A DNA stretch of 64,000 nt, taken from Sulfurimonas marina (GTDB taxonomy: Bacteria; Campylobacterota; Campylobacteria; Campylobacterales; Sulfurimonadaceae). Below, in pieces: positions 45,559-56,044 of this stretch. The DNA lies in assembly GCF_014905095.1 (NCBI RefSeq), contig NZ_CP041165.1, forward strand, positions 434,001-498,000. Direction: 5' to 3'. Position numbers and translations under genes: made by a program. Within the stretch, counting starts at the first letter, position 1. The number at the start of each line of letters is the position of its first letter. The notes beneath the pieces are model-generated. The model did no database searches. It saw only the letters and a program-made list of their open reading frames with translations, and was not told the DNA's origin.

Positions 45559-46071
45559 ATGAAAAATATTGTACTTATTGGTTTTATGGGAGTGGGTAAA
45601 GGGAGCGTAGCTCGTGAAGTTATTAAACACTCTGACTATATAGCTATGGATACTGATGATCTTATCGAGAGTATGGAAAACAGAAAAATTAAAACAATTT
45701 TTGAAATCGAGGGTGAAGAGTATTTTAGAAAAATAGAAAAAAAAGTTGCTAAATGGTTAGAGGAGAGTGTAAAAAATACACTTATCTCTACAGGCGGCGG
45801 GTTTTATAAACAAAAAAACATCAAAAAAATAGGTACAATTGTTTTATTGGATTCCCCTTTTGATGAAATTATAAAGCGAATAAAAGAACATCCAAAAGCA
45901 GAGAAAAAATTTAAAAAAAGACCTTTACTGCAAGATCTTGAAAAAGCTAAAGAGCTGTACGATTTACGTCGTCCAGAGTATTTAAAAGTAGCTGACGTAG
46001 TTGTAGATGTTACAAATAAATCGGCACATGATTGTGCAAAAGAGTTATTGAAAAAGGTGAAAAAGTTATGA
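45559..46071 (+). CDS. aroK: Shikimate kinase
   Basis: Phosphorylates shikimate in aromatic synthesis. 170 residues from ATG 45559, which has AAGGTG 12 bases upstream; an in-frame GTG at 45544 would add five residues. P-loop GFMGVGKGSVA has Gly after the Lys, where AroK usually has Ser/Thr, resembling the GKGT loop of adenylate kinases. MDTDDLIE (substrate Asp), IFEIEGEEYFRKIE, TGGGF and the lid RPLLQD are standard. It shares ATGA with the next gene. Confidence 0.93.
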   Translation: MKNIVLIGFMGVGKGSVAREVIKHSDYIAMDTDDLIESMENRKIKTIFEIEGEEYFRKIEKKVAKWLEESVKNTLISTGGGFYKQKNIKKIGTIVLLDSPFDEIIKRIKEHPKAEKKFKKRPLLQDLEKAKELYDLRRPEYLKVADVVVDVTNKSAHDCAKELLKKVKKL

Positions 46072-46478
46072 AAAAGTTATTAATTATTATGATGCTTTTA
46101 AGCGGATCTCTTTTTGCAAATGAGATTCACTGGGCAAAAGATTTTACAAGCGGTATAAAAACAGCAAAAAAAGAGAATAAACCGGTTTTATTTGTTTTTT
46201 CAAGACACTCATGTAAATATTGTGTAATTCTAGAGAAAACAACTTTCTCTAATAACCAGGTGATTGATACTTTAAATAAAGATTTTGTTTCTATTATTGC
46301 ATATAGTGATGAAGGGGACAGATTCCCTCAAGAGTTATGGAGACCGGGTACTCCGACACTATGGTTCTTAGATGAAAATGGACAACCAATGTATCAACCT
46401 TTAATGGGTGCAGTTGGTGAAGAGTACTTTATAGAAGCATTAAAAGTTGTAAAAAAAGCATTTGACACAAAAAAATAA
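46068..46478 (+). CDS. Secreted thioredoxin-fold protein
   Basis: 136 residues from ATG 46068 (ATGA overlap with aroK). An upstream in-frame start at 46032 would put 12 charged residues before the signal peptide MKKLLIIMMLLSGSLFA, so it is rejected. Mature protein: thioredoxin-like with SRHSCKYCVILEKTTF (CxxC) and a cis-Pro in RPGTPTLWFLDENG. Likely a periplasmic disulfide oxidoreductase; partner unknown. Confidence 0.85.
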   Translation: MKKLLIIMMLLSGSLFANEIHWAKDFTSGIKTAKKENKPVLFVFSRHSCKYCVILEKTTFSNNQVIDTLNKDFVSIIAYSDEGDRFPQELWRPGTPTLWFLDENGQPMYQPLMGAVGEEYFIEALKVVKKAFDTKK

Positions 46479-47789: not shown

Positions 47790-49028
47790 TTGCCAAAATT
47801 TACATCATTATCATTAAGTCAAGCCCAAGAAAAGGTTATAGAGGTAATTACACCTAAAACAGAATCGTTATTTATTCCAACTATGGAATCTGAACAATCG
47901 ATCTTGGCTGATGATATATATGTAAAGAAAAATCTTCCCTCTTTTGATAATTCTGCAATGGATGGATTCGCATTTATGCATTCAGATAAGGGAAAAAAAC
48001 TCAAAATAGTATCTACTGTTTTTGCCGGAGAGGCACATGAGTGTAAAATAAAAGAGGGGGAGTGCTGTAAGATTATGACGGGAGCTAAAGTTCCCGAAGG
48101 GATTGATACAATAGCTCCCATTGAAAACTGCAGTGCTGTTACGGAAGAGAGTGTTATAGTTCCTGAAAATATTAACTTAGGTGATAACTTAAGAAAAAAA
48201 GGGGAAGAACTCGAAGCTGGAGAGATTTTATTTAATAAGGGTGAAATCGTAACAGCTGCACATATAGCTCTATTAGCCTCTCAAGGGATAACGACTATAG
48301 AAGTTGTAGCCCCTTTAAACATTGCAATCGTATCAACGGGTGATGAACTCAAGGAACCTTGGGAGAGTGCAAGTGAAGATGAGATCTATAATGCGAACGC
48401 TTTTGGTATTAAATCTCTTTTACAGCAGTTTGGATTTGAAGCCTCTTATATTGGTTCTATTCCTGATGATTTAGAGAAAACTATCGACTTCCTATCTACA
48501 CTAAAGTCTTACGATGTTGTGATCACAACAGGTGGAATCAGTATGGGGGATGCAGACTTTTTATATCAGGCATATGTAGCTAACGGGTTAGAGTCTATCT
48601 TTCATGGTGTAAATGTAAAACCTGGTCGTCCAACTATGATGGGTAAAATGGGAACAACTTTAGTGATGGCTATGCCTGGAAATCCTTTAACAACTATGTT
48701 AAATGTATTTACACTTTCAATTCCGGCACTTTTTAAAAAGCAGGGTGCTACTAATTGTTACCATACTCCACTCTATGCTAAGAGTGCTAAGGACCTAAAA
48801 CTTAGAAGCGGTAGGGATAACATGGTCCTTGGATCTTTAGAAAACGGTGTTTTCACGCCTACAAGAGATAATAAAATAGGTTCTGGAATGTTGTCACCTT
48901 TAGTAGAAAGTAATGCAATAGCATATTTTGCTGATAATGTTGAAGAATTGAAACAAGATCAATTTATCAAGGTCGTTTTATTAGAAGATATAACTCGAGC
49001 TTATAAAATAAATTCTATAAACTTTTAA
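47790..49028 (+). CDS. moeA: Molybdopterin molybdenumtransferase
   Basis: Inserts molybdate into adenylated molybdopterin. 412 residues: PSFDNSAMDGFAF near 50, IMTGAKVPEGIDTIAP, the MoCF domain with VSTGDEL and TTGGISMGDADF, and the GRPTMMGKMGTTLVMAMPGNPLT stretch spans the usual GKP-PGNP region. TTG start, 10 bases after hisD. It is followed by an intrinsic terminator and then by a molybdoenzyme operon that would use its product. Confidence 0.95.
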   Translation: MPKFTSLSLSQAQEKVIEVITPKTESLFIPTMESEQSILADDIYVKKNLPSFDNSAMDGFAFMHSDKGKKLKIVSTVFAGEAHECKIKEGECCKIMTGAKVPEGIDTIAPIENCSAVTEESVIVPENINLGDNLRKKGEELEAGEILFNKGEIVTAAHIALLASQGITTIEVVAPLNIAIVSTGDELKEPWESASEDEIYNANAFGIKSLLQQFGFEASYIGSIPDDLEKTIDFLSTLKSYDVVITTGGISMGDADFLYQAYVANGLESIFHGVNVKPGRPTMMGKMGTTLVMAMPGNPLTTMLNVFTLSIPALFKKQGATNCYHTPLYAKSAKDLKLRSGRDNMVLGSLENGVFTPTRDNKIGSGMLSPLVESNAIAYFADNVEELKQDQFIKVVLLEDITRAYKINSINF

Positions 49029-49241: not shown

Positions 49242-49880
49242 ATGCAATTAGGTTTCCTAGTTGATTTGCATCTATGTATGGGATGTAAAGGTTGTGAGAT
49301 CGCATGTAAAGTGGAAAATGAGGTTCCACTAAGTACATGGAGATTACGTGTTAAATACGTAGACGTGGGGACTTTCCCAGAAACTAAAAGAACATTTACA
49401 CCTCTAAGATGTAATCACTGTGAAAATGCTCCATGTGAGAGAATTTGTCCAGTAAGCGCATTACATTATTTAGAAAACGGAATTGTTAACATCGATAAAG
49501 AAAGATGTATCGGTTGTGCTGGTTGTGTTATGGCTTGTCCATATGGTGCGATCTATATCGATCCACAAACTCAAACAGCTGATAAGTGTACTTATTGTGC
49601 GCACCGTATTGCTTCATCTATGATGCCAGCGTGTGTTGTTGCATGTCCAGTTCAAGCAAATATTTTTGGTGATTTAGATGATCCTACATCAAATATCTCT
49701 AAATATATTCAAACTCACCAAGGTGATGTACAAGTTCGTAAACCTGAAAAAGGTACTAACCCTCATCATTACTATACTGGTGGTGGAAACGTTACTCTTA
49801 ACCCACTTGCTTCAAGAAGAGAAGAGGGACATAACTTATTTAACGATATTACTAAACTTCCACTAGGAGGGCATCACTAA
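49242..49880 (+). CDS. Four-cluster ferredoxin subunit of a molybdopterin oxidoreductase
   Basis: 212 residues from ATG 49242, with AAAGGAG eight bases upstream; an in-frame TTG 18 bases earlier covers the ribosome-binding site and is rejected. Four cysteine groups for [4Fe-4S] clusters: CMGCKGCEIAC, CNHCENAPCERIC, CIGCAGCVMAC, and CTYC with ACVVAC. No signal sequence, so it would be exported with the TAT-bearing catalytic subunit. PsrB/PhsB/DmsB/TtrB type; specificity is not decided by this subunit. Its stop overlaps the next start by one base. Confidence 0.93.
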   Translation: MQLGFLVDLHLCMGCKGCEIACKVENEVPLSTWRLRVKYVDVGTFPETKRTFTPLRCNHCENAPCERICPVSALHYLENGIVNIDKERCIGCAGCVMACPYGAIYIDPQTQTADKCTYCAHRIASSMMPACVVACPVQANIFGDLDDPTSNISKYIQTHQGDVQVRKPEKGTNPHHYYTGGGNVTLNPLASRREEGHNLFNDITKLPLGGHH

Positions 49881-50782
49881 TGGTACATGAAACATTAGCA
49901 GCTACAAATGCTGTAGTAACTTTGGACGTAGCTTTACCGGATATCTTTTGGGGTTGGTATGTTACTATGAATATGTGGGCGAAAAGTATTGGTACTGGTT
50001 TAATCTTTATGCTTTTCCTATTAATGAAGAAAAATGCAAGTGAGATGGAAGGTTTAAGAACTTCTACACTTATCGTATCGTTCGTATTTATGAACATCTT
50101 CTTACTGTTTACTTGGTTAGACCTTCACCAAATGTGGAGAATGTGGCATATTTTCTTTTATCCACACTGGACTTCTGCAATTACAGTTGGTGCATGGATG
50201 GCTACACTATTTGTTGGTTTAGAGTTCTTAATGATCGTTGTTATGTTACTAAGAAACAATACTGCAGCATTTGATAAATTATTATTCTGGGTAACTTTAC
50301 TTGCTATCCCTGTTACACTTTATACTGCGGGTATTATGGCAGAAGCTACTGCTCGTGAACTATGGCAAATGCCGACGGAATCTGCACAAATGATTTTAGC
50401 AGCTACACTATCTGGTTCTGCAGCTATGATCTTAATCGGTGGTTCTAAATTAAGTGATGAAACAAGAACATTCTTTGGTTCAGTACTTGGTTTAAGTGCA
50501 TTAATGGCATTTATCATCTATATGTCAGAGTATATCTTCGGTGCAATGAAAGCTGAAGAGGTTGCTGCGATCTTAGAATATGTAAAAGGTCACGGTGAAT
50601 ATGCAACTATGTTCTGGATTGGACAATGGGTAGCATATATCTTACCAATGTTACTTGTAGCATTAAGTAGAGTGAAAAACTCAACTGCTATGTTAAATTT
50701 AGCAGCAATTTTAGCAATCGCTGGTTTATGGGTTGTTAAACACGTTTGGTTAGTAATACCACAATTATTACCGTTAAGTTAG
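49880..50782 (+). CDS. NrfD/PsrC-type quinone-interacting membrane subunit
   Basis: 300 residues with eight or so membrane helices, beginning with FWGWYVTMNMWAKSIGTG. NrfD-family subunits anchor the enzyme in the inner membrane and pass electrons to or from quinone. Second gene of the operon; the catalytic subunit follows after 14 bases with an AGAAAGAGG site. Confidence 0.92.
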   Translation: MVHETLAATNAVVTLDVALPDIFWGWYVTMNMWAKSIGTGLIFMLFLLMKKNASEMEGLRTSTLIVSFVFMNIFLLFTWLDLHQMWRMWHIFFYPHWTSAITVGAWMATLFVGLEFLMIVVMLLRNNTAAFDKLLFWVTLLAIPVTLYTAGIMAEATARELWQMPTESAQMILAATLSGSAAMILIGGSKLSDETRTFFGSVLGLSALMAFIIYMSEYIFGAMKAEEVAAILEYVKGHGEYATMFWIGQWVAYILPMLLVALSRVKNSTAMLNLAAILAIAGLWVVKHVWLVIPQLLPLS

Positions 50783-50796
50783 AAAGAGGATTATAA

Positions 50797-53700
50797 ATGT
50801 ATTTAGAAAGTAGAAGAACATTTTTAAAAGGTGCTGCATTTACAGTTGCTGGTGCTGCTATTGCAAAGGGTGTTTTTACAACTGATGCTATCGCTGAATC
50901 TGTTGAAGAGAGCAAATTTACTAATACTCCAGATTCATTATCATTCTATCCTCCAATGGAAGAGTGGTCTGATTTTAAAGAGTTAGATGGTGACGACTGG
51001 AAACGTGGTGGTATTGACCGTCACGGTGTAAGAAGTGAATCAAACCCGGACGGTATTGAAGTTAATGATTATACAATCGTACCAACTGCATGTTCAAACT
51101 GTGAGGCTTCTTGTGGTTTAACTGCATGGATCGATAAAAAATCATTCACAGTTAAAAAATATATGGGTAACCCATTACACCCAGGTTCTCGTGGTAGAAA
51201 CTGTGCAAAAGGTTACGCTACACAATCTCAAATGTACGATCCGGATCGTATAGCATTCCCATTAAAGCGTGCTCCAGGTTCTGCTCGTGGTGAAGGTAAA
51301 TGGATCCGTACTACATGGGATGAAGCTATGACTACTATCGGTAAGAAGATGGGAGATACATTAGCTAAAGGTGACGAATTATCTAAAAAATCTGTAATGT
51401 TCCACGTTGGTCGTCCAAATGAGAACGGATTTACTGGTAAAGTATGGCATACACTTGGTTGTGATGCATTTAACTCACATACAAACATCTGTTCATCAGG
51501 TGGACGTACACCAACAATTCAATGGGCAAATGACGATAGAACATCTCCGGATTGGGCTAACGCTAAGTTAATTTTCCTTAACTCTTCTCACGCTGCTGAT
51601 GCTGGTCACTATTTCCAACAGTCAGCTTCATTTATTGCTGATGCAAGAGCTAAAGGTGCAAAACTTGTAGTTATGGATCCACGTATGTCTAACTCTGCTG
51701 GTATGGCAGATCTTTGGATTGCTGCATGGCCTGGTACTGAGCCTTTAATCTATCTATACTTAACGCAGAGAATCCTTAACGAAGGTAAAGTAAACCGTGA
51801 ATTCGTTAAAAAATGGATGAACTGGGAAGTATTCCTAGATAACAAAAAATACTTAGAGTATATGGTAGAAAAAGGGTATATCTCTAAAGTACCTACGAAA
51901 AATGATTTCGATGCATTCTTAGATACTATTAAAGAGCTTTATACACCATATACATTAGAGCACGTTTCAAAAGAAACTCACGTTCCTGCATATAAACTAG
52001 AAAAACTATATGAGATGTTTATCTGGGCTGGTACTTCAATCTCTTCTTACTTCTGGCGTGCAACTGCTGCTGGTAACCGTGGTGGTTGGATGAGTGGTAG
52101 AACAGGTTATTTACCAATCGCTCTTCGTGGTGCTATCGGTCCTGAGGGTGGTACATTCTTCCACCACTGGCACGTTATTTCTGTTGCTGGTAAAGGTGGA
52201 GCTGCTACAGTTGGTCAAGGTAAACGTGGTGCTAACGTACCTAAAGTTGATGTTTATAACGAACTGACTTGGCCGCCGGAATGGCCATTATCAACTTACG
52301 AGTTATCATTCTTACTACCACACCTCCTAACGGATACAGAGTGGCAAAAGAAATGGCAAGCTAAAGGACTTAATGTTCCAACTAAGCTTTCTGTATGGAT
52401 CCCTCGTATGTATAACCCGGTATGGATTAACCCGGATGGTTTCAGATGGTTAGAAGTTCTTAAAGATGAAAAGAAAATGGAGCTTACTTTCAACCTTTCA
52501 CCAACTTGGTCTGAGACAAACTGGCATGTTGACTACATCTTACCAGTTGGTTTAGCTGGTGAGCGTCACGATCAACACTCTGAAGCTACAATGCCTGCGC
52601 GTTGGACTTCATTCCGTCAGCCGGTTATGAGAGTTGCATTAGAAAAAGCTGGTTGGAAACCTAACAACCCTAACCGTGCTACACTTGAAGCACACATTAA
52701 AGCTGGTCTTGGTGAAGTTTGGGAAGAGAATGAATTCTGGTTCGATATGTGTGTTAACTACATCGATCCAACTGGTAAACTTGGTATCAAGAAAATGTGG
52801 GAATCTAAAAAGAACCCTGGTAAACCAGTTACAATTGCTGAGTGGTATGATGCAGCATTTGGTGATAACTTACCAAATCTTAAAGCAACAGCTACATCTG
52901 ATGCAAGATACAAAGATGCTGAATACCCAGTTTATGAGTATATGAGAGATCACGGTGCTTGGATGGAAGAGAGTAAAATCTACTCTGCACAAGAGCGTGA
53001 GATCAAAGAAGAGGGTAACAACTATATCGCTCACGGTAAAAAATATAACAAACATCACGTACACACTGATAAACGTACAGGTGTTATGTCTGTTGAGCAT
53101 GATGGTAAAAAACACTCTATCGGTATCGAAATTGACGGTAAGAAAATGGAAGGTTTCGCAACAATGGATAAGAAACTTGACTTCTTCTGTGAGTGGTTAG
53201 CTGACGATTGGAAATGGCCGGAATATGCGATTCCATTCTATCCGAGAACACCGGAAGAGAAAAAAAGAATGGAACACATCGTATCTCATGTAGACCATAC
53301 TTATATGACTGAAGAGAACTCGTATGCGTTAAATACTGTATTCCGTTTACCGTATAACATCCATACACGTTCTGCGAATTCTAAACACTTAATGGAGATC
53401 TCGCAAAACCACGATCCAATTTGGATCTCAACTAAAGATGCTAAGCGTCAAGGTTTCAAACGTGGTGATGCTATTCGTGTTAGAATCGTGGATTCTGTAA
53501 CTGGTTTAGAGTCTGGTCACTTTGTAGCTATGGCAGTTCCAACTGAAGGTGTATTACCAGGTACTTTAGCTTGTTCACACCACGGTGGTAGATGGAAGCT
53601 TGTTAACTCTGTAAGTATCCCTAACGGTGTTACTGATGGTAAAGTAGCGTCTCAACCGGTAGCACGTAATATGAACGATCCTCAGTTCATGGCTGCTAAA

Positions 53701-54189
53701 GTTGAAAATGCAGGTTCTGAAGCTGGTCAAATTAAGATCGAAGATTATGATGGTACAAGTGGTATGAACAGCTTTGGTGTTCCAACTGCTGAACTTGTAA
53801 TGGATGGAAAAATCGGTAAGTTAAAATATACTCAAGGTATTGTTCCATTCCATACAGAGCGTTTTGCTGATTATAACCGTGATAGCGGAAATATCTGGTG
53901 GGATGGTCTAAGTGGTTCTTGGCAAAATGCTGTAGCTGCTGCGCATCCGGATCCAATTTCTGGTATGCATTGTTGGCACCAAAAAGTTATTTTAGAACCT
54001 GCACAAGCTGGTGACAAAATAGGTGACATCTATGTTAACTATGAAAATAACTTCAAAATTTACCAAGGATGGAGAGACCAACTTACTCGTCCACTAAATG
54101 AAGATGACAAGTTACGTCGTCCACAACACATTAAGCGTCCATGGGTTCCACTATCGGATAAAGCTTATAAAGTAGAGATAAAAGCGTAA
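50797..54189 (+). CDS. TAT-exported molybdopterin oxidoreductase, catalytic subunit (DMSO reductase family)
   Basis: 1130 residues, longer than classic PsrA/PhsA (about 750). Twin-arginine signal SRRTFLKGAAFTVAGAA (R6, R7), so it acts in the periplasm. A [4Fe-4S] motif is formed by C99, C102, C106 and C136. C232, in SHTNICSSGG, lies where DMSO-reductase-family enzymes carry the Mo ligand, suggesting a Cys ligand as in polysulfide, thiosulfate, tetrathionate and arsenate enzymes. A C-terminal molybdopterin-dinucleotide-binding domain includes MEISQNHDPIWIS and TLACSHHGGRWKL. The long insert near 700-860 is unassigned. Substrate unknown; a sulfur compound is an inference. Gene order is B-C-A. 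Confidence 0.92.
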   Translation: MYLESRRTFLKGAAFTVAGAAIAKGVFTTDAIAESVEESKFTNTPDSLSFYPPMEEWSDFKELDGDDWKRGGIDRHGVRSESNPDGIEVNDYTIVPTACSNCEASCGLTAWIDKKSFTVKKYMGNPLHPGSRGRNCAKGYATQSQMYDPDRIAFPLKRAPGSARGEGKWIRTTWDEAMTTIGKKMGDTLAKGDELSKKSVMFHVGRPNENGFTGKVWHTLGCDAFNSHTNICSSGGRTPTIQWANDDRTSPDWANAKLIFLNSSHAADAGHYFQQSASFIADARAKGAKLVVMDPRMSNSAGMADLWIAAWPGTEPLIYLYLTQRILNEGKVNREFVKKWMNWEVFLDNKKYLEYMVEKGYISKVPTKNDFDAFLDTIKELYTPYTLEHVSKETHVPAYKLEKLYEMFIWAGTSISSYFWRATAAGNRGGWMSGRTGYLPIALRGAIGPEGGTFFHHWHVISVAGKGGAATVGQGKRGANVPKVDVYNELTWPPEWPLSTYELSFLLPHLLTDTEWQKKWQAKGLNVPTKLSVWIPRMYNPVWINPDGFRWLEVLKDEKKMELTFNLSPTWSETNWHVDYILPVGLAGERHDQHSEATMPARWTSFRQPVMRVALEKAGWKPNNPNRATLEAHIKAGLGEVWEENEFWFDMCVNYIDPTGKLGIKKMWESKKNPGKPVTIAEWYDAAFGDNLPNLKATATSDARYKDAEYPVYEYMRDHGAWMEESKIYSAQEREIKEEGNNYIAHGKKYNKHHVHTDKRTGVMSVEHDGKKHSIGIEIDGKKMEGFATMDKKLDFFCEWLADDWKWPEYAIPFYPRTPEEKKRMEHIVSHVDHTYMTEENSYALNTVFRLPYNIHTRSANSKHLMEISQNHDPIWISTKDAKRQGFKRGDAIRVRIVDSVTGLESGHFVAMAVPTEGVLPGTLACSHHGGRWKLVNSVSIPNGVTDGKVASQPVARNMNDPQFMAAKVENAGSEAGQIKIEDYDGTSGMNSFGVPTAELVMDGKIGKLKYTQGIVPFHTERFADYNRDSGNIWWDGLSGSWQNAVAAAHPDPISGMHCWHQKVILEPAQAGDKIGDIYVNYENNFKIYQGWRDQLTRPLNEDDKLRRPQHIKRPWVPLSDKAYKVEIKA

Positions 54190-54198
54190 GGCTTTTAT
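54178..54198. terminator. Hairpin at the end of the molybdoenzyme gene
   Basis: ATAAAAGC-GTAAG-GCTTTTAT, a perfect 8-bp stem that spans the stop codon and lies between convergent genes. The stem's own T-run could end transcription in both directions, but no extra U-tract follows. Confidence 0.5.
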
Positions 54199-54211
54199 CC
54201 TACAATCTTTC

Positions 54212-54718
54212 TTACTTTAAAAAATCTACCCACCACATTCTTAAAAACAATCCAAATGTACTTGTATAACCAACTTCGCTAAAAACTAGGTTTTGATTTT
54301 TATCATAGATAAAAGTTGTCGGATAAGCTTGAATTTTAAATATTTTAGAAAGCTCTGAGTTTGTATCGTTAACTACTTCAAAATCTAAATCTCTCTCTTT
54401 AAGATAGGAATGAATTTCATAGTCACTTCCCGAATTTACTGCAATAGTAACAACATTATAGTATTTAGATAGTAGCTCAATATTTGAAGCTTCAAGTTTA
54501 CATGTAGGACACCAGGTAGCCCAAAAGTGGATTATAAAAGGTTTTGAACTATCAATATTATAGTTTGAATTATCTATTAGTTTAAAACTCTTTATTTGCA
54601 GAGGTTCTTGATTTAATTCCTGACTTTTATACAAGCTTAGTATATTTGCAATGATACTCATAAACAAAATGACAAACAGGAACTCTTTTGCGTAGTGGAA
54701 AATTTTCTTTTTGAACAT
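54212..54718 (-). CDS. TlpA-like membrane-anchored thioredoxin
   Basis: 168 residues: one membrane helix (about 12-28), then a thioredoxin fold with FWATWCPTCKLEA (CxxC near 70-73) and cis-Pro in AYPTTFIY. Likely a periplasmic reductant for cytochrome or cofactor assembly. Divergent from nosL (89 bases to its ATG) and convergent with the molybdoenzyme gene. Confidence 0.88.
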   Translation of the reverse strand: MFKKKIFHYAKEFLFVILFMSIIANILSLYKSQELNQEPLQIKSFKLIDNSNYNIDSSKPFIIHFWATWCPTCKLEASNIELLSKYYNVVTIAVNSGSDYEIHSYLKERDLDFEVVNDTNSELSKIFKIQAYPTTFIYDKNQNLVFSEVGYTSTFGLFLRMWWVDFLK

Positions 54719-54742
54719 ATATTCTCTTTTTAATTAATTTAA

Positions 54743-54748
54743 TATAAT
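54743..54748 (+). promoter_or_regulatory. -10 element for nosL
   Basis: TATAAT in AATATAATTG, 60 bases before the nosL ATG, inside the divergent region with the TlpA-like gene. Confidence 0.4.
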
Positions 54749-54807
54749 TGTAATGATAAAAAGTTACAATTTTATTGAAATTAAGATTAGATAGAAGGAA
54801 AATTGAT

Positions 54808-55314
54808 ATGTTGAAAAATATAATTTTAGCTGTATTTTTAATAGGATTTGTAGGTTGTAGTCAAAAATCTGAAATGCCGCATCACACTCATGCAAAACCA
54901 AAGGTAATGTTTCAAACAGTAAGTGAAAAAGATGCGATCCTTGTACAAGAGGGAAAAGAGAAATACCATTGTCATTTATGTGGAATGAACCTTGTTAAGT
55001 TTTATAAAACAGGTTACATTGCAGAGGATGAAAGCCGTAAATACCAATATTGTTCAATCCACTGTTTAGCTGACCATTTAAATCAAGGTGTAGAGTTAAA
55101 AAATCCAAAAGTTATTAATGTAACTACTCTAAAACCTATCCCAGTTCTTGAAGCTTACTATGTTGTAGGGAGTAAAGTAAGAGGGACTATGAGTCGTGTA
55201 AGTAAATATGGTTTTGGAACTTTAGAAGCGGCAAAACAATTTCAGAAAAAACATGGTGGAGATATCATGGACTTTAACGGTGCTTTAAAAGAGGCACAAA
55301 AAGATTTTCAATAA
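54808..55314 (+). CDS. nosL: NosL-family copper/metal lipoprotein
   Basis: 168 residues from ATG 54808 (AGAAGGAA site nine bases upstream). A longer frame back to a TTG at 54775 would precede the lipoprotein signal with basic residues and is rejected. Lipobox GFVGCSQ with Cys16. NosL marks: HCHLCGMNLVKFYKTGYIAE (Cys-Cys-Gly-Met Cu site), QYCSIHCLADHL and the C-terminal GFGTLEAAKQFQKKHGG. Well-studied NosL delivers Cu(I) to nitrous-oxide reductase; no nosZ is in the window, so it may serve another partner here. A DUF4395 gene follows after ten bases. Confidence 0.85.
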   Translation: MLKNIILAVFLIGFVGCSQKSEMPHHTHAKPKVMFQTVSEKDAILVQEGKEKYHCHLCGMNLVKFYKTGYIAEDESRKYQYCSIHCLADHLNQGVELKNPKVINVTTLKPIPVLEAYYVVGSKVRGTMSRVSKYGFGTLEAAKQFQKKHGGDIMDFNGALKEAQKDFQ

Positions 55315-55324
55315 AAGGTTTTAG

Positions 55325-56044
55325 ATGGGTTTTTTACCAGAATATGGAGAAAAAGTTCCAGGGTATGATGTAAGAGTACTTAATGAACGTGAAGCAAGAG
55401 CTGCTGCAGCGATCTTATTTGTAGGCGCATTTATTGGGCTTACAAATGGTGTAATGTTACAAACTGCAGTATTTTCAAAGTATTTCATCTCTTTTTTTAC
55501 TTTAGATTTTTTAATTAGGATATTAAACCCTAGATATGCACCAAGTTTAATACTTGGTCGTTTTTTTGTACAAAATCAAACACCTGAATATGTAGGTGCC
55601 ATGCAAAAAAGATTTGCTTGGGGGCTTGGATTTATCATTGCTGTTCCAATGTTTTACTATCTGGTAATCAGTTTTGAACCTAATCCTTTAAAGGTACTAG
55701 TGTGTTTAATCTGTATGTTCCTGCTTTTTTTTGAATCAGCTTTTTCGATCTGTATAGGGTGTAAAATGTTTAATCTGTTTATGAAAGAGAAAGCTACACA
55801 CTGTCCGGGCGGTGTATGTGAGATAAGAGTAAAAGATGATGTACAAAAGTTTAACCCTCTACAAAAGATTATTCTAATTTTTACTACTATTGCAGTTATT
55901 TGGGGTACATACGCATATTTTACTGAATTAAAAGATCGTACTATTTTTGTAAAAAAGATGAAAGAGCTTTTTATGTCGGATGAAGCATTAGAGCAGATGC
56001 AATATGAACAAGATATGGCAGAGTTCGAAGAGGAAGAATTTTAA
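55325..56044 (+). CDS. DUF4395 membrane protein with C-terminal cysteine motif
   Basis: 239 residues, four or five membrane helices, with CIGCKMFNLFMKEKATHCPGGVCE carrying four Cys near 148-168, probably a metal- or disulfide-active site. DUF4395 proteins often sit near thioredoxin or sulfur genes. The acidic tail (MAEFEEEEF) is cytoplasmic. Co-directional with nosL after ten bases. Function is unknown; linkage to the molybdoenzyme is by position. Confidence 0.8.
   Translation: MGFLPEYGEKVPGYDVRVLNEREARAAAAILFVGAFIGLTNGVMLQTAVFSKYFISFFTLDFLIRILNPRYAPSLILGRFFVQNQTPEYVGAMQKRFAWGLGFIIAVPMFYYLVISFEPNPLKVLVCLICMFLLFFESAFSICIGCKMFNLFMKEKATHCPGGVCEIRVKDDVQKFNPLQKIILIFTTIAVIWGTYAYFTELKDRTIFVKKMKELFMSDEALEQMQYEQDMAEFEEEEF

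Follow-up and report, generated by a model that had tools for sequence, protein, structure and literature searches.

The locus at positions 49242 to 56044 of the window raises the question of which of its six genes make up one enzyme system and on what that system acts. The window is the whole stretch of 64,000 nucleotides that was analysed and corresponds to positions 434001-498000 of a 2.26-Mb single-contig genome; among named genomes, those of Sulfurimonas are nearest to it. A check of its open reading frames found all six genes that the sequence-only reading had described, and Pfam confirmed the family of each: Fe-S protein, NrfD, molybdopterin oxidoreductase, AhpC-TSA/Redoxin, NosL and DUF4395. 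The first three, here called BCA, lie on the plus strand and encode a four-[4Fe-4S] ferredoxin-type electron-transfer protein of 212 aa (B, 49242-49880, Pfam Fer4_11), an NrfD-type membrane anchor of 300 aa (C, 49880-50782) and a molybdopterin catalytic subunit of 1130 aa (A, 50797-54189, Pfam Molybdopterin, Fe4S4 and Molydop_binding). They are followed by genes for a TlpA-like thioredoxin (54212-54718), a NosL-type lipoprotein (about 54808-55314, plus strand) and a DUF4395 membrane protein (55325-56044, plus strand). The described succession of genes stands, except that TlpA is on the minus strand and convergent with A. Upstream, moeA (47790-49028, plus strand), encoding a molybdopterin molybdotransferase, is an insertion that separates hisD from B and is seen only in the window genome and two sister genomes, while hisD is followed directly by B in the other loci compared; moeA is possibly a functional neighbour of BCA. 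A thioredoxin-like protein with a DsbD-type match (46032-46478) lies between aroK and hisD, a position kept in most Sulfurimonadaceae loci.

The BCA operon was found in 85 of 397 sampled Campylobacterota genomes, every sampled Sulfurimonas included, with its order kept in 95 of the 96 loci checked and with B proteins 76-98% identical across Campylobacterota loci. One genome carries a tandem duplication upstream of BCA (L052, 13637-19806) in which the second B gene is truncated and its start fused to another coding sequence, possibly an assembly artefact. The features of an exported complex iron-sulfur molybdoenzyme (CISM) are present in the one operon: a TAT motif and a [4Fe-4S] motif in A, a four-cluster B and an NrfD-type anchor. 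The genome also holds a TorD-family chaperone, encoded by one TorD gene at 671.3 kb beside a co-occurring ferredoxin. The N-terminus of A reads MYLESRRTFLKG and contains the twin-arginine motif ESRRTFLKG, conserved in the relatives of A, from which export of A via TAT is predicted. The [4Fe-4S] motif is N-terminal (Cys99/102/106/136), and B has 16 Cys in four clusters. Cys232 of A is invariant in 22 Campylobacterota homologs as well as in the Thermomicrobium, Rhodococcus, haloarchaeal and Azoarcus enzymes, and aligns with the corresponding Cys of Wolinella PsrA in a profile-profile alignment; it is the predicted molybdenum ligand, as in characterised members. An AlphaFold model of A built with 26 close homologs was poor (mean pLDDT 50, pTM 0.52), and a PDB fold search with it returned the superfamily only, at low TM-score. 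A is indeed longer than PsrA/PhsA (1130 against about 760 aa), as had been noticed. Its segment 700-860, previously taken for an unassigned insert, is also present in enzymes 35-38% identical to A over about 95% of the length, and is therefore a feature common to the whole clade; a stray insert is ruled out.

C and A do not share one history. Compared with S. autotrophica-type operons (type I) the window C is 84-86% identical and the window A 61-63%, and compared with S. denitrificans-type Sulfurimonas operons (type II) C is about 60-73% and A 80-94% identical. At the C/A junction (50750-50800) the closer DNA match changes from type I to type II. Likewise, the C tree places the window with the type I loci L041, L043, L045 and L046 (UFBoot 100), in conflict with the A tree, which places it with type II (UFBoot 100). 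The same hybrid is carried by two sister genomes, which rules out misassembly as the source of the mosaic. The operon is a recombinant of a type I C gene and a type II A gene. The sole lineage-specific insertion in A, about 40 residues near 944-985, is found in type II proteins and not in type I.

The placement of A among known molybdoenzymes was examined with NCBIfam models and a maximum-likelihood tree. A scored 128 bits against the PhsA model (cut-off 694), with the match limited to residues 93-341, 51 bits against TtrA (cut-off 1750) and 62 bits against ArrA (cut-off 1600), and the best-scoring model for B was TtrB with 204 bits, below the cut-off of 416. Canonical campylobacterial PhsA/PsrA proteins exceed 1000 bits in the PhsA model, and no canonical PhsA/PsrA reaching even E = 1e-80 was found in the window genome. 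In the tree of 51 proteins, which held no SoeA, SreA, ArrA, ArxA, SrdA or PadB and one TtrA reference (Proteus), the Campylobacterota enzymes form a group with their counterparts from Thermomicrobium, Rhodococcus jostii RHA1 and haloarchaea (UFBoot 100). The next branches outward are Azoarcus KH32C (UFBoot 100) and then Proteus TtrA (99), and A branches apart from Wolinella PsrA and enterobacterial PhsA. The phylogeny that had been proposed as a check is thus answered in part, for PsrA/PhsA and for TtrA. A is ruled out as a PsrA/PhsA by the HMM cut-off and its separate branch, and as a TtrA by the HMM cut-off, its clade being only sister to one TtrA.

Phyla other than Campylobacterota were sampled through plasmids only, and the plasmid-borne relatives are 35-38% identical to A over about 95% of the protein. 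Those in which B and C are fused lack the TAT motif and in at least one genome adjoin genes for TusA, DsrE, Mrp, rhodanese, MBL-fold and TauE/SafE proteins, a setting that argues for sulfur chemistry. Such neighbours of a TAT-less sister clade in aerobes and haloarchaea would also suit an exported relative of SoeABC that oxidises periplasmic sulfite or another sulfur intermediate and passes the electrons to the quinone pool. Consistent with this, SoeA-like proteins of Sulfobacillus are also without signal peptides (PMC4378227) and S. denitrificans has no SorAB (PMC4584964, table 2). Known SoeA is, however, cytoplasmic (PMC10100899), whereas A bears a TAT motif and is partnered by TorD; the tree holds no SoeA or SreA sequence; and haloarchaea are prominent among the relatives of A, whereas the bSreA/SoeA group of Wells et al. 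has only 5 archaeal members. An exported sulfite-oxidising enzyme of this SoeABC-like kind is on this evidence unlikely.

The relation of the enzyme to the published polysulfide reductases (PSR) could be followed in the genomes G327, G332, G129 and G167, which we take to be those of S. denitrificans, S. gotlandica, S. autotrophica and W. succinogenes. Of the molybdopterin proteins found in S. denitrificans and S. gotlandica, only A qualifies as a PSR-type candidate, the others being read from sequence as Nap, Nas, Fdh and NuoG types, and the 'PSR homologs' published for these species must therefore be the BCA enzyme. As annotated, psrABC would be a polysulfide or sulfur reductase carrying H2 electrons via menaquinol to periplasmic polysulfide. 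PSR homologs are reported for all sequenced Sulfurimonas by Han and Perner (2015, PMC4584964), and psrABC transcription in Black Sea Sulfurimonas was interpreted as S0 reduction (PMC9122950). The enzyme is Cys-ligated and NrfD-anchored like Psr, and reduction is further favoured by TtrA, a reductase, being the nearest characterised enzyme in the tree. A reductase of this kind is nevertheless rather doubtful, given the place of A outside PsrA/PhsA (128 against 694 bits, and the tree) and given that W. succinogenes, the model polysulfide respirer, has a canonical PsrA and lacks this enzyme. It is also at odds with the retention of BCA in a genome without NapA or NosZ, NapA being absent among the four molybdopterin proteins of the window genome, and with S. 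pluma, which lost nitrate reductase but keeps psrA, a gene tracked in transcript data from the plume (PMC10066037). Black Sea psrABC transcripts peak at the upper sulfidic boundary, and their normalised expression did not track sqr and soxCD (PMC9122950). In the literature searched, as far as its text was accessible, no polysulfide reductase activity of a Sulfurimonas PSR homolog is reported, and no mention of Suden_0498-0500 was found. Phs, Psr and Sre types are not yet distinguishable by sequence, and psr-like enzymes of sulfur oxidisers may run in reverse (PMC8359478). On the published work on PSR homologs, this caveat and the lack of NapA here, a sulfur-compound:quinone oxidoreductase is the favoured reading, and oxidation is slightly preferred as its direction.

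The six genes had been proposed to form a single redox system in which NosL and DUF4395, with TlpA, would mature the molybdoenzyme. The genes are close together in the window, and in 38 of 70 loci of the named-genome collection no more than 1 kb separates TlpA from A. But the two genes converge in the window, their ends about 22 bp apart, so that TlpA cannot be on the A transcript. Among the 89 loci with at least 1.5 kb past A, the gene next to A downstream was TorD in 45 and TlpA in 38, never both and in six neither, so that TorD and TlpA are mutually exclusive behind A. TlpA and NosL form a separate divergent pair, adjoining in 30 of 30 loci where both were found. In S. autotrophica-type genomes this pair lies 5-7 kb from A with other genes between, the order being BCA, TorD, ferredoxin (in two of three), p160, p150, cytochrome and bat-type genes, and then TlpA and NosL. 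Only 3 of 85 carriers have DUF4395 within 5 kb of A, namely the window genome, which has four DUF4395 genes, and its two sister genomes, all of one lineage. Counted by genome, the DUF4395 family occurs in 62/85 A carriers and 13/312 others, a co-occurrence without linkage that arises because both are common in Sulfurimonadaceae. NosL proteins are a copper protein family, whereas A is not a copper enzyme. No NosZ was matched in the window genome or in either of its sisters (G282, G143), while the same search was positive in four other Sulfurimonas. A second NosL gene (L141, 8950-9615; about 1467.9 kb in the genome) stands beside ABC-transporter ATPase and permease genes in this genome without NosZ. 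Both NapA and NosZ are missing from the window genome, though common in the genus.

Strand, synteny and linkage counts together with the NosZ search led to the rejection of TlpA, NosL and DUF4395 as maturation factors; that all six genes are one system is accordingly very improbable. The three are very probably chance neighbours of A, which synteny, linkage counts and the absence of NosZ indicate came to lie there by deletion or translocation. Since TlpA adjoins A in much of Sulfurimonas (38 loci), a weak functional link between these two is possible.

A real and conserved partner set of BCA was found elsewhere in the genome, at 671.3-674.3 kb (L138, 9314-12310). This cassette encodes TorD, a 366-residue double ferredoxin, a 251-residue protein (p250) with a borderline shikimate-dehydrogenase N-domain match and a 168-residue protein (p168) for which the domain search gave no family match. 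The cassette is 187 kb from BCA in the window genome, with no molybdoenzyme beside it. It adjoins A in most relatives, and in six complete type II genomes it lies 169 kb to 1.07 Mb away. The ferredoxin occurs in 84/85 A carriers against 3/312 non-carriers, counts that are not corrected for phylogeny, and the four genomes that break the pattern are all drafts in 130 or more contigs. The pattern holds in several families and despite the physical separation, and in Azoarcus KH32C, too, the BCA genes are followed by TorD and a homologous ferredoxin. From this we infer that the cassette is a maturation or electron-transfer unit acting in trans. One Sulfurimonas genome shows another mixed state, in which a type I A gene is followed by TorD and p150 (L041, 12275-13455) and a ferredoxin of the window type, with 76% identity, lies elsewhere (G037 contig C5, 19547-20638).

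The explanation that is on the whole probable combines a TAT-exported CISM of sulfur type, a TorD cassette acting in trans, bystander neighbours and a hybrid operon. B, C and A would assemble into one TAT-exported complex, with A as the periplasmic catalytic subunit holding Mo-bisPGD with a cysteine ligand and one [4Fe-4S] cluster, B as the four-cluster electron carrier and C as the NrfD-type anchor that would trade electrons with the quinone pool. An inorganic sulfur compound (sulfane sulfur or polysulfide, thiosulfate or sulfite) is the most likely substrate, and its oxidation, with electrons passing into quinone, appears slightly favoured. A is probably matured by the TorD-type chaperone and the dedicated ferredoxin cassette, in trans from 187 kb. 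TlpA, NosL and DUF4395 would have come to adjoin A once this place had lost the cassette and the bat-type genes, and the operon may be regarded as a natural hybrid of type I anchor and type II catalytic subunit. The earlier idea of a periplasmic redox system on sulfur compounds therefore survives for the quinone-linked molybdoenzyme complex, with a probable sulfur substrate, and falls for TlpA, NosL and DUF4395, which have no part in it. The reductase and the SoeABC-like reading overlap with this explanation, and the probabilities given to them are not exclusive shares. It can be suggested only tentatively that the Sulfurimonas 'polysulfide reductase' is a distinct exported family that oxidises sulfite or sulfane sulfur into quinone, uses an unlinked TorD-ferredoxin cassette and has subunits exchangeable between lineages. 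Sulfurimonas and its relatives are dominant in sulfidic redoxclines and vents, where their 'psrABC' transcripts are interpreted as sulfur reduction, and if the enzyme is not a polysulfide reductase these readings may carry the wrong sign. With the TorD-ferredoxin cassette named as partner and NosL, DUF4395 and TlpA cleared, the function becomes testable in S. denitrificans, a suitable host because no other PSR candidate is there to mask a deletion.

Compared with known systems, the BCA enzyme resembles Wolinella PsrABC and enterobacterial PhsABC in its Mo-bisPGD A subunit with Cys in the ligand position, its four-cluster B and its TAT motif, and shares the NrfD-type anchor with Psr. It differs from PsrA/PhsA in length, in an identity of 23% (profile alignment) and in its separate branch, so that the name psrABC used in Sulfurimonas implies a polysulfide reductase for a sequence outside PsrA/PhsA. 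The two PsrA groups reported in PMC4584964, non-vent species with Sulfuricurvum and S. autotrophica, match types II and I here. TtrABC is the nearest characterised branch (UFBoot 99) and B scores best with the TtrB model, but A and B remain far from the TtrA and TtrB cut-offs (51 against 1750 and 204 against 416 bits). SoeABC and bacterial SreABC are likewise Cys-ligated, NrfD-anchored sulfur enzymes (PMC10100899, PMC8076601); they are described as cytoplasmic and without signal peptide, whereas A begins with a TAT motif. The BCA enzyme also resembles the uncharacterised fused-BC enzymes of Thermomicrobium, R. jostii RHA1 and haloarchaea, which match A over nearly its whole length, 700-860 included. 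RHA1 has the same FeS and NrfD modules, but within one protein, and unlike BCA the fused enzymes have no TAT motif and no adjacent TorD, with Mrp/NBP35 and sulfur-transfer genes beside them instead.
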